A DNA stretch of 64,000 nt, from contig CALWZO010000008.1 in NCBI GenBank assembly GCA_944386045.1, positions 1-64,000 on the forward strand, written 5' to 3'. Under the pieces are notes generated by a model. The model searched no databases. It saw only the letters and a list, made by a program, of their open reading frames with translations, and had not been told where the DNA came from. The position numbers were made by a program, and so were the translations under genes. Shown piece by piece: positions 54,047 to 64,000 of this stretch (position 1 is its first letter; every line of letters starts with the position of its first letter). Source of the stretch: an uncultured Clostridia bacterium. Its GTDB lineage: Bacteria > Bacillota > Clostridia > Oscillospirales > Ruminococcaceae.

Positions 54047-54270
54047 AAAAAAACACCTGCATCCCAAACGGGATGAGGTGTGTCATACCCCACGGTTCCA
54101 CCCGAATTGCAGAAATTATCTGCCACTCTTGAAAGATATAACGGTCTTGCCCGGGCAAAGTTCGCTTTGCCGCTCTGCGGTGGTACCTTACACCTGGCTT
54201 TTGCCTTTTTTCACCGGCCAAAGGCTCTCTGAAAAAGCGTTGGTATAAAACATGTCCGCATCAATGCTTT
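54047..54270 (-). promoter_or_regulatory. T-box riboswitch of thrS
   Basis: Reading leftward, a stem I region with the AGAGAG element and GGTACC (a likely ACC Thr specifier near 54177-54186) is followed by the T-box sequence GGGTGGAACCGTGG (54090-54103). Then a terminator ACACCTGCATCCC/GGGATGAGGTGT (54053-54082) with a run of seven T follows. Uncharged tRNA-Thr would pair with the TGGAAC bulge and form the antiterminator. Placed 60 bases before the thrS start. Confidence 0.93.
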
Positions 54271-54276
54271 ATTGTT

Positions 54277-61522: not shown

Positions 61523-62338
61523 TTATGAAAAATTTTGCACAGCCGGTCGGCTGGTTATTCTGGCATAGGATATGTAGTATCCGTCCTCCCCTTCCTCCAC
61601 TCGCCGATACAGCGTTACAGGAGAGTCTTTAAACATAGCGTTGATAGAAGTGCTGTACTTTACCGGCCGGCGATTTTCTATGAAAAATATTATATCGGTA
61701 TCTTCAGGTATGGATATTTTCAGCTGGCTGTCAGTTTCCGGGTCATACCCGCTGTAATATTCGGCAAAGTCGGGGGCAATTTGCCGGAATTGCCCTGCGC
61801 TCATCTGTGACAGCGATTTTTTTACATATTCCTGCAGCCGGTCCACGGTCCGCGGCGGTATATATATTCTTATATCATCAAAAACAGATTTTATATAATC
61901 CGGATTTTCCAAAATATAAGCATCTACGGCACCGGCAGCCTCTGATATATAGTGCTCAAAATACATTTCGTCCAAAAACGCCACATAGTTGAAATCATCA
62001 TAAAATCGTACAGTCAGATGGGTCTGACTGCGGTTGGCAAAAAGTCCGATCATATAATTTTTATTGCCGCCCGGATAGTCTGTGGGGTCAATGGTGACTT
62101 TTTCGCCTGTCTTTATTTCGGCCACAATATTTATAATATCATCCACATCATAATCCGGATGATCAGACCAGGCGGAATATTCATTGCCGATTTTATAATT
62201 GATTTTTCCTTCAAAGTCCTGCCAAAATCTTATGTCGGTGACAGGTTTCGGCTTTATAAAAAAGTTCCACCGCATAAATCCGGTTACGATGGAAGCTGCC
62301 GTAAATACTGCTGCGATTATCCGCTTTTTATTTTTCAT
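61523..62338 (-). CDS. Membrane-anchored hypothetical protein
   Basis: A 271-residue protein. One N-terminal helix (about residues 7-24) anchors a long extracytoplasmic, mostly beta-type acidic domain; sequence such as ITVDPTDYPGGNKN near residue 80 and a C-terminal YYISYARITS segment are visible. GGAGGTG stands seven bases before the ATG at 62338; a longer frame to 62392 lacks a site. I recognise no family. It is isolated and converges on the GNAT gene. Confidence 0.7.
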   Translation of the reverse strand: MKNKKRIIAAVFTAASIVTGFMRWNFFIKPKPVTDIRFWQDFEGKINYKIGNEYSAWSDHPDYDVDDIINIVAEIKTGEKVTIDPTDYPGGNKNYMIGLFANRSQTHLTVRFYDDFNYVAFLDEMYFEHYISEAAGAVDAYILENPDYIKSVFDDIRIYIPPRTVDRLQEYVKKSLSQMSAGQFRQIAPDFAEYYSGYDPETDSQLKISIPEDTDIIFFIENRRPVKYSTSINAMFKDSPVTLYRRVEEGEDGYYISYARITSRPAVQNFS

Positions 62339-62505
62339 GCTCTTCACCTCCGGTAAAATATCAGCAGGCAAGCCTGAAATCTGTATTGGCATATCATCCT
62401 CTTATATATATTATAACATTCATCACTTTAAAAATAAATTGTATGACCGGATAATATGGGCGCTTGTTTTTGTTTAAATTACACAAGCACTGTTTTCACA
62501 AAATA

Positions 62506-62537: not shown

Positions 62538-63098
62538 TTATATTATATGTGCTTTCTCCGCCGCTTTCATCACAGCCGCGCACAGAATACCGTTGGCGAC
62601 GGCTTCTACCGCGCCGCCTGCCAGTGTGGTGCTCCACACCGCCACGCCGAAAGCGCCGGTTACCAGCTGTCCGCAGAATATGTACAAAAGTCCCAAAAAC
62701 AGCACTGTGTTTACCACTGAAGAGCCCAGGCCAAGGATGAAATATCCGGCGGCATTTTTTCTGCTTCTGGCAAATCTGCCGGCAATACCGGCAAACAGGC
62801 CGACACACACCCTGGGAATTATACATATTACAGCTGTCATAATTCCGCTGTAAGCCAGGATAAGCTGGCCCAGGGCCTCGCTGGGTGCTTTGAAAAAACT
62901 GGTGACGCCAAAGGCCAGCCCGCATATCAGCGCACCGTTCAGGTCCAGCGTGCCGCCGGCTATTGCAACGGGAAGCACCATAATGGTAAAGGACAGGACC
63001 CCGGCAGGTATATAACCCAGCGGTGTTGCTGCCAAAAGCACGGTGATTGCCGCCAACAAAGCTGTTTTTGTCAACGAAGAAATTTTTTTGCTATTCAT
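62538..63098 (-). CDS. ECF transporter S component, PanT-like
   Basis: A 186-residue membrane protein with about six helices, a substrate-binding S unit that works with the shared EcfA/EcfT module. The pattern LTKTALLAAITVLLAATPLGYIPAG and the following GGTLDLNGALICGLAFGVTSFF fit the pantothenate-type PanT. The neighbour that follows transcription from the right is a pantothenate kinase-like gene, supporting that call. AAGGAG lies eight bases before the ATG. Specificity is inferred from the family look and gene pairing. Confidence 0.82.
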   Translation of the reverse strand: MNSKKISSLTKTALLAAITVLLAATPLGYIPAGVLSFTIMVLPVAIAGGTLDLNGALICGLAFGVTSFFKAPSEALGQLILAYSGIMTAVICIIPRVCVGLFAGIAGRFARSRKNAAGYFILGLGSSVVNTVLFLGLLYIFCGQLVTGAFGVAVWSTTLAGGAVEAVANGILCAAVMKAAEKAHII

Positions 63099-63206
63099 TT
63101 TTTACTCCTTTACTGCCGTCCCACCCTGAAAGCGGGTACAGCGTAACCTTTTATTTGCCGGTTGTCCGGCTTTATGTATTATACAGCAAAATTCTTTTTT
63201 TGCAAC

Positions 63207-63232
63207 AAAAAAGCGGACATTTCTGTCCGCTT
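63207..63232 (-). terminator. Terminator after the CoaX-like gene
   Basis: On the minus strand AAGCGGACA pairs with TGTCCGCTT and is followed by TTTTTG. It separates the CoaX-like gene from the PanT-like gene. Confidence 0.9.
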
Positions 63233-63239
63233 CAGGTAT

Positions 63240-64000
63240 TTATTTTGCGTTTTTTTCATATATCAGCCTGAGCCCGTCAAGCACCAGATTTTCTCGGTAT
63301 ATAATCCGGCTGCGGCAGTGTTCCGCCACCCGTGGCAGCATACCGCCTGTACCGATACATACGGCATCCGTCCCCAGCTGTTGTTTAAATCTGTCTATCA
63401 TGCCGTCGATGGCACAGGCGGTGCCTATTACCAGGCCGGACTGAATATTCTGCACCGTATTGGCACCTATAACGCTTTTTATCTGTGTGCTAATATCCAC
63501 ATCGGGCAGCTGGGCGGTAAACATTGACAGGGCCTTGGCCCCCATTTTTATTCCGGGAAGTATCGCGCCGCCCACAAAGCAGCCGCCGTCATCTATTGCA
63601 AAAATTGACAGTGCAGTGCCCATGGAAACCAAAATACAAGGCGGGGAGAATTCGGCCAGTATTGCGGCACTCTGGCATATCAGGCCTGCGCCCACCTGGG
63701 AAGGTATCTCGGTATGAATTTTAACACCGGTTTTCAATCCAGGCCCCACTGTATATATTTTGCATGGAAAAACAGAGGCAAGGGCGGCTTTTATGACGCT
63801 TTGCACGCCGGGCACAACACAGGCGGTTATAACTCCGTCTATATCTGCAGGGCGAATTCCTTTCAGCTGTAAAAGACTGATAAATTTCAAAGCGTATTCA
63901 TCCGCAGTGTACTGCCGGTCAGTGTGAAAAGAAACTTTTGCCGTCAGCTCCTGCCTGCGGAAAACCCCCATCAGTATGTTGGAGTTGCTTATATTAACTG
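63240..64000 (-). CDS. CoaX-like (type III pantothenate kinase family) protein, partial and degenerate
   Basis: The 5' end lies beyond the window; about 253 residues are visible. Overall alignment with CoaX is good: VGPGLKTGVKI, GGAILPGIKMGAKALSMFTAQLP, and IQSGLVIG...GMIDRF, GTGGMLPRVAEHC, LVLDGLRLIYEKN. Yet the catalytic motifs are altered. The phosphate loop expected as DIGNT reads NISNS; the DNPxEVGADR region reads EIPSQVGAGL, losing the catalytic Asp; DFGTATT reads SMGTALS. These changes make pantothenate phosphorylation unlikely. It may be a paralog with a sensing or other role, next to a PanT-like transporter. Confidence 0.88.
   Translation of the reverse strand, partial: VNISNSNILMGVFRRQELTAKVSFHTDRQYTADEYALKFISLLQLKGIRPADIDGVITACVVPGVQSVIKAALASVFPCKIYTVGPGLKTGVKIHTEIPSQVGAGLICQSAAILAEFSPPCILVSMGTALSIFAIDDGGCFVGGAILPGIKMGAKALSMFTAQLPDVDISTQIKSVIGANTVQNIQSGLVIGTACAIDGMIDRFKQQLGTDAVCIGTGGMLPRVAEHCRSRIIYRENLVLDGLRLIYEKNAK

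Follow-up and report, generated by a model that had tools for sequence, protein, structure and literature searches.

In the genome analysed here, a CoaX-like gene has almost certainly lost its kinase function, judging from its motifs, and on balance we think that its product is a dead CoaX that has been retained to sense a ligand and regulate the panT-like transporter encoded next to it. The gene, coaX*, occupies 63240..64000 on the minus strand of the window, the 64,000-nucleotide stretch of DNA from an uncultured Clostridia bacterium that was analysed, and its assignment as a CoaX-like pseudokinase is based on the PF03309 match, the full open reading frame, an AlphaFold2 model with the CoaX fold and dN/dS. 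The end of the window cuts the gene, leaving 252 of its 256 codons inside and the start codon 10 nt outside, and the full frame (L003:3241-4011:-, 256 aa, P0001) was completed from the next 2.3 kb of the contig. Genes for tRNA-Lys (L003:4169-4244) and tRNA-Arg (L003:4490-4565) lie upstream of coaX*, and the contigs of other assemblies stop within a few hundred bases of its start.

The first-pass annotation had described a CoaX with three altered motifs in a well-kept framework, and both observations were confirmed. CoaX* scores 166 bits against PF03309 (Pfam cut-off 24.7), with the domain covering most of its length, and 152.8 bits against TIGR00671 (cut-off 58.2); together with its CoaX fold, this places it in the CoaX protein family, below the NCBIfam equivalog scores (for PRK13321.1, as an example, 212.5 bits vs a cut-off of 233). 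The AlphaFold model, built on a 68-sequence alignment, reached a pLDDT of 95.1 and a pTM of 0.91 (a shallow 8-sequence version had a pLDDT of 70), and its best structural matches were CoaX structures, led by 3djc (Z 33.3) and 2h3g (Z 32.4). Three aspartates, in the motifs DIGNT, GAD and DFGTATT, are catalytic in type III pantothenate kinases (PanKs). In coaX*, residues 5-10 read VNISNS where (D)IGNT is expected (D6 to N), residues 105-111 read QVGAGLI at the GAD motif (D109 to G) and residues 127-135 read LVSMGTALS at DFGTATT (D129 to S). The protein thus lacks the three aspartates that define CoaX as an enzyme (N6, G109, S129), as do all 8 orthologues, and by established CoaX chemistry the loss of these three acidic residues should remove phosphoryl transfer. 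For the same reason the earlier suggestion that it might act on another substrate is, for a kinase action, unlikely. In the GAD(R) motif both the Asp and the following residue are altered, which may lower pantothenate binding. CoaX* retains the VGPGxKTG loop and the conserved NTVQN-QSG stretch, and its pI is 8.6, against 4.6 for the far more acidic intact CoaX of the same genome.

These motif changes are not the product of chance or sequencing error, because the altered residues are kept across 8 orthologues. Including the copy of the window genome (G000), coaX* orthologues were found in that genome and in 7 of 15 further genomes of the genus (53-94% identity), and all 8 sequences are 256 aa long, gap-free and open in frame. 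Residues N6, S8, N9, S10, S129, M130 and T132-S135 are invariant among them, position 109 is G or S, and conserved residues concentrate at 147-204. Pairwise dN/dS (NG86) was 0.055 between G000 and G007 and 0.043-0.092 among the other six; these low values (0.04-0.09) were measured at dS of about 0.7-2, while the between-group values of 0.16-0.34 come with dS near or past saturation and are less informative. Homologues sharing the motif changes therefore exist under purifying selection, and the random decay in relatives that would have spoken against a maintained fold was not seen between close pairs (dN/dS about 0.04-0.09). Close relatives that carry a name are metagenome-assembled Oscillospiraceae, several of which come from the gut of goats or sheep.

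Directly 3' of coaX*, at 62538..63098 on the minus strand, lies a panT-like gene that codes for the S component of an ECF transporter (49.7 bits against PF12822, cut-off 30.7). The sole convincing PDB match of its product is chain S of 4rfs (E 8e-11), which we take to be the L. brevis ECF-PanT complex, so that both marks of a PanT that were tested, ECF S-component family and PanT similarity, were found. The linkage to a PanT-like transporter pointed out in the first-pass annotation is real and recurs in the genus and in a wider sample. Within the genus, coaX* and panT occur together in 8 of 16 genomes, adjacent and in the same order, and the panT-like gene is found in these 8 genomes only; the other 8 (G001, G003, G006, G008, G009, G011, G013 and G015) have neither gene, and no panC. 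In the window genome the two genes are probably transcribed separately, since a terminator-like hairpin behind coaX* (63210..63233, minus strand; consensus scan, 5 such hairpins in the region vs 2.1 expected) and a promoter-like site for panT (TTGCAA-16-TATAAT, 63178..63205, minus strand; consensus scan, 10/12 positions, 7 found vs 2.1 expected) lie between them. On the other side of panT, 3' of it, a 289-aa frame (window 61523-62392, minus strand) had no Pfam or NCBIfam match, and further away a T-box leader (RF00230, window 54066-54273, minus strand, 109.6 bits) precedes a threonyl-tRNA-synthetase-like gene.

The panT leader carries a hairpin over the translation start (63111..63145, minus strand) that we class, by its layout, as a pan-type RNA; it was delimited from folds, covariance-model matches at 63105-63175 and covariation over 40 leaders. 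It consists of an outer stem of 3 bp, a bulged A on the 3' side, 5 bp, a bulged A on the 5' side and an inner stem, and a Shine-Dalgarno-like AAAGGAG follows just after it. An upstream simple hairpin (63157..63170, minus strand; GCCGG/CCGGC in the window genome) is not conserved in sequence beyond the genus. The panT leaders of the 8 genus genomes share the invariant stretches ACGCUGUACC and GGACGGCAGUAAA, and six leaders fold into the stem with two bulged A with z-scores of -2.3 to -4.3. When a covariance model of the 8 genus leaders was run over 91 loci, it gave 40 matches at E<=0.3, all 40 of them 5' of a panT-like frame, with the ATG mostly 3-12 nt downstream. In an alignment of these 40 leaders, which was fitted to the covariance model and is thus biased towards its pairing, 95.8% of cells pair vs 81.8% in shuffled alignments, and changes on both sides occur in 12 of 14 pairs. 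Covariation was 0.473 vs 0.215 shuffled, a value reached in 0 of 500 shuffles, and sliding the alignment by 1-3 columns destroys the signal.

The layout of outer 3 - A - 5 - A - UC/GA equals the printed RF01749 consensus. PMC2864571 reports this pan motif in front of panB, panC and genes for aspartate decarboxylase, in an arrangement that it calls suggestive of dimeric protein binding. RF01749 had no Rfam match in the window, where the other Rfam results for the region were the T-box and chance matches at E<=10. Exactly at the panT leader of G045 (L045) there is a tandem sub-threshold RF01749 match of 29.8 bits (gathering score 36.2; E 0.001 in 161 nt). Unlike the pan motif, which occurs mostly in tandem, the hairpin is single in the window; it is tandem in L045 and L050, and in G048 a sub-threshold pan match of 29.3 bits lies at a panB/panC/aspartate-decarboxylase-type operon. 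We therefore use the term pan-type, and not formal membership of RF01749, because the layout matches and the score stays below the gathering threshold. A separate Rfam observation is a Hammerhead type II ribozyme match in G044 (L221:8963-9029, plus strand, 54.4 bits, above the gathering score).

Degenerate CoaX copies were then counted in a sample of 169 CoaX frames from 109 Oscillospirales genomes, made of 61 relatives and 59 family members picked for at least two or for weak CoaX matches, minus those without any match; the sample is therefore biased and not random. Leaving out a frame cut by a contig end (L212), an aberrant one (L213) and both fragments of L054 gave 165 usable copies, of which 52 were without one or more of the three Asp and 38 without at least two; among the 52, D6 was lost in 45, D129 in 40 and D109 in 24. 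One further match, L218 (G097:C46), lies within a 592-aa open frame and is possibly a fusion. Considering the 40 genomes with both an intact and a degenerate CoaX, panT stood beside the degenerate copy only in 26, beside the intact copy only in 9, beside both in 1 and beside neither in 4 (sign test on 26 vs 9, p 0.006); with the genus of the window left out, the linkage was 19 vs 9 (p 0.087). In the raw table, panT adjoins 35 of 56 degenerate and 49 of 113 intact copies. On a CoaX tree built with the motif columns removed, the degenerate state required 18 changes vs 38-50 in 100 shuffles, so that it is inherited in clades and was gained, or reversed, more than once. Degenerate clades with support (SH-aLRT) are the genus (8 members, 99), HDx (91), L032/L121 (91) and SDS/NDS (83); a 21-member all-degenerate clade around coaX* had a support of only 36. 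Whether degeneration goes with panT linkage was also examined by independent pairs; 4 pairs were supported, and the result was not significant. The panT-linked CoaX copies are less acidic on average, a weak hint for RNA binding.

A second RNA model, R2, trained on coaX-linked leaders, placed the RNA (E<0.01) 5' of 68 of 85 coaX-adjacent panT frames (69 with G207; G138 is counted twice). The pan-type RNA was present at panT in 31 of 35 cases beside a degenerate CoaX (G207 included) vs 38 of 50 beside an intact one, and in 1 of 8 cases (G028) where panT is not adjacent to coaX. With filters off, weak matches appeared beside panT in 10 of 12 negative coaX-adjacent loci and in 1 of 7 non-adjacent ones (G034), with E values from 7e-5 to 2.5, and several of the weakly matching panT leaders show a clear variant hairpin. 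As a separate observation, the CoaX-like gene of G028 is split in two frames (L054, G028:C2:368099-368921), and the unlinked panT of that genome (L226) keeps the pan-type RNA.

The RNA also goes together with the VGPGxKTG loop of CoaX. Both were found in 68 genomes, the RNA only in 2 (G045, G168), the loop only in 14 and neither in 6 (p 0.0013), and the same classes with one genome per genus among relatives were 22, 1, 7 and 5 (p 0.012), both p values ignoring kinship. A model-independent descriptor, the window and Shine-Dalgarno bonus of which were tuned after earlier scan results, detected the hairpin in 62 of 82 genomes with the loop, 2 of 8 without it and 36 of 1082 other leaders. The loop is kept in 49 of 52 degenerate CoaX, and among intact CoaX in 42 of 49 beside panT vs 11 of 64 elsewhere. 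As intact CoaX adjoin panT nearly as often with the same RNA, the association of RNA, panT and CoaX seems to be older than kinase loss, and it may be inherited.

A normal second CoaX, sought because the altered gene might have been the only PanK of the genome, was found at G000:C53; it has D6, D109 and D129, is 31% identical to coaX*, is unlinked and has no KTG loop, and it excludes coaX* as the sole PanK. CoaD and CoaE were also found in the window genome, while CoaA, type II PanK, PanC and CoaB/CoaBC were not detectable in this genome, rated 100% complete. Across the genus, PanC, CoaBC and type II PanK are missing from 16 of 16 genomes. CoaA had no match above the TIGR00554 cut-off in the genus; as a second kinase it was rejected, all matches being below 51 bits vs a cut-off of 235 (these weak matches are presumably uridine-kinase-like), and so was a type II PanK, of which none was found in the genus. 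The CoaBC, CoaA and panC searches were confined to the 61 relatives, and CoaB/CoaBC is missing in 44 of them.

Without PanC and CoaBC, pantothenate cannot reach CoA in this genus by the textbook route. A human-gut survey reports strains that lack CoaBC and suggests that a secondary kinase activity gives them a pantetheine shunt (PMC6593275), and PMC11487621 states that pantetheine is not a substrate of B. subtilis CoaX. We infer that either the second CoaX phosphorylates pantetheine or some other step supplies CoA. Given the lack of CoaBC, the vitamer sensed or transported could be pantetheine or CoA, and the vitamer of the genus may be pantetheine rather than pantothenate; the pantothenate named as ligand in the earlier reading is thus uncertain in a genus without PanC and CoaBC. 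An Arg after the GAD Asp was considered as a mark of true pantothenate use, being present in an intact CoaX of 8 of 17 CoaBC-positive vs 0 of 44 CoaBC-negative genomes, and was rejected as such, as 7 CoaBC-positive genomes have CoaX without this Arg.

In the reading that we favour, for which CoaX of M. tuberculosis is the nearest precedent, a metabolite of the CoA pathway, be it pantothenate, pantetheine or CoA, would bind the old substrate site of coaX*, presumably kept as a dimer, and occupancy of the site would change the production or activity of PanT. The likely point of action would be the pan-type hairpin covering the panT translation start, with direct contact to the transporter as the alternative; we would rank the pan-type RNA before the transporter, and the transporter before the other CoaX, as targets. 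That coaX* senses a ligand and regulates panT would fit its conservation and linkage, and that it binds the pan-type RNA itself is speculative. Points that count against the favoured reading are the linkage bias of 19 vs 9 outside the genus, the paired test without significance, the nearly equal panT linkage of intact CoaX, the altered GAD(R) motif, the terminator-like and promoter-like sites between the two genes and the lack of CoaBC. The panT-linked CoaX branch most probably always had a second, regulatory job, with the catalytic residues free to go where another kinase took over phosphorylation. A broader version, which we put forward tentatively and hold to be rather doubtful, is that the KTG-loop branch, kinase or pseudokinase, is a trans-acting, metabolite-responsive reader of pan RNA; coaX*, pan RNA and panT would then form a trigger-enzyme circuit in which the enzyme was lost by mutation several times and the regulator kept, and which may run on pantetheine considering that the genus lacks CoaBC.

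Two other readings also give the protein a partner. CoaX* could be a non-catalytic partner of the intact CoaX in a heterodimer in which the dead subunit contributes residues to the interface or controls activity allosterically, comparable to the apicomplexan PanK1/PanK2 heteromer. Type III PanKs are dimeric with substrate sites at the interface, the conserved residues of coaX* cluster at 147-204, and tandem pairs of an intact and a degenerate CoaX lie directly 3' of panT in G069, G179 and G195 (L151, L157 and L149). We nevertheless regard a heterodimer as unlikely: the intact CoaX of the genus is unlinked, only 31% identical, without KTG loop and of very different pI (4.6 vs 8.6), half of the genus has the intact copy only, and the degenerate copy stands alone in 12 sampled genomes. 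Regulation of uptake by touching the transporter, for which GlnK-AmtB is a model, would leave the pan RNA to be read by another factor. Gene adjacency, the strongest signal, would be explained in this way, as would an RNA that is about as frequent beside dead as beside intact CoaX (31/35 vs 38/50), but PanT is membrane-embedded and shares the ECF module, and a contact site for a cytosolic CoaX is not obvious, making this reading quite unlikely.

The 12 genomes with degenerate CoaX only bear on whether coaX* could still phosphorylate something via a rearranged active site. Five (G036, G045, G049, G160, G215) also encode a type II PanK, and G014 is 83% complete; the remaining six (G016, G022, G098, G174, G188, G226), of which the CoaA search covered G016 and G022, have no type II PanK; either some of their partly altered copies are active, or these assemblies may have gaps, four being 81-87% complete. 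Copies in those six genomes have lost 1-3 of the residues, mostly not all, while coaX* has lost all three acidic residues beside an intact CoaX, and for coaX* a rearranged active site is very improbable. As a pseudogene it was ruled out by its dN/dS of 0.04-0.09; that it is in early decay, as the lost catalytic residues and the broken relative in G028 (L054, two fragments) could suggest, is hardly credible against a same-length open frame in 8 genomes and these dN/dS values. Regulation of panT by a ligand-sensing coaX* is the reading that we prefer.

The idea of a CoaX pseudoenzyme and the pan motif are both already published; in the open-access literature we found no paper that deals with Firmicutes CoaX pseudokinases, with pan RNA in front of panT or with a protein binding pan RNA, and no paper on the pan motif later than its description. 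According to PMC12288473, few bacterial regulatory mechanisms for pantothenate supply are known. The fixed order of pseudokinase gene, pan-type hairpin and transporter gene offers a small, concrete system in which to ask what reads pan RNA, CoaX kinase residues have been lost repeatedly while the fold stays, and a whole gut-bacterial genus without PanC, CoaA, type II PanK and CoaBC has an unexplained CoA route.

Compared with known systems, coaX* resembles type III CoaX (PF03309; 2h3g, 3djc, 3bf3) over its whole length (Z 30-33, rmsd 1.4-1.9 A) and shares the GPG-KTG loop and NT-QSG stretch, but has N, G and S for D6, D109 and D129 in a genome with another CoaX. CoaX of M. tuberculosis (9b78, 9cku) is among the closest structures to the model (Z 31.5) and, as described in PMC12288473, is a non-kinase with an effect on PanB depupylation that depends on pantothenate; it shares with coaX* the lack of PanK activity, which for coaX* is predicted, another PanK in the cell and a tie to pantothenate supply, which for coaX* is putative. 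It keeps the three Asp in its PDB sequence (DVRNT, GAD, DFGSS), unlike coaX*, and its partner is Dop/PanB, whereas coaX* is found beside an ECF transporter gene and a pan-type RNA; the Pup-proteasome system is said to be actinobacterial (PMC4254994). The panT-leader hairpin shares with the pan motif (RF01749; PMC2864571) the two bulged A, the spacing 3 - A - 5 - A - inner UC/GA or CC/GG and an end at the Shine-Dalgarno, and differs in standing before a transporter gene, in being usually single, in its other stem sequence and in its score below 36.2. Finally, the panT-like protein is like PanT of ECF transporters in its PF12822 and 4rfs_S matches, unlike those systems in a host without CoaBC, where the imported vitamer may be pantetheine.
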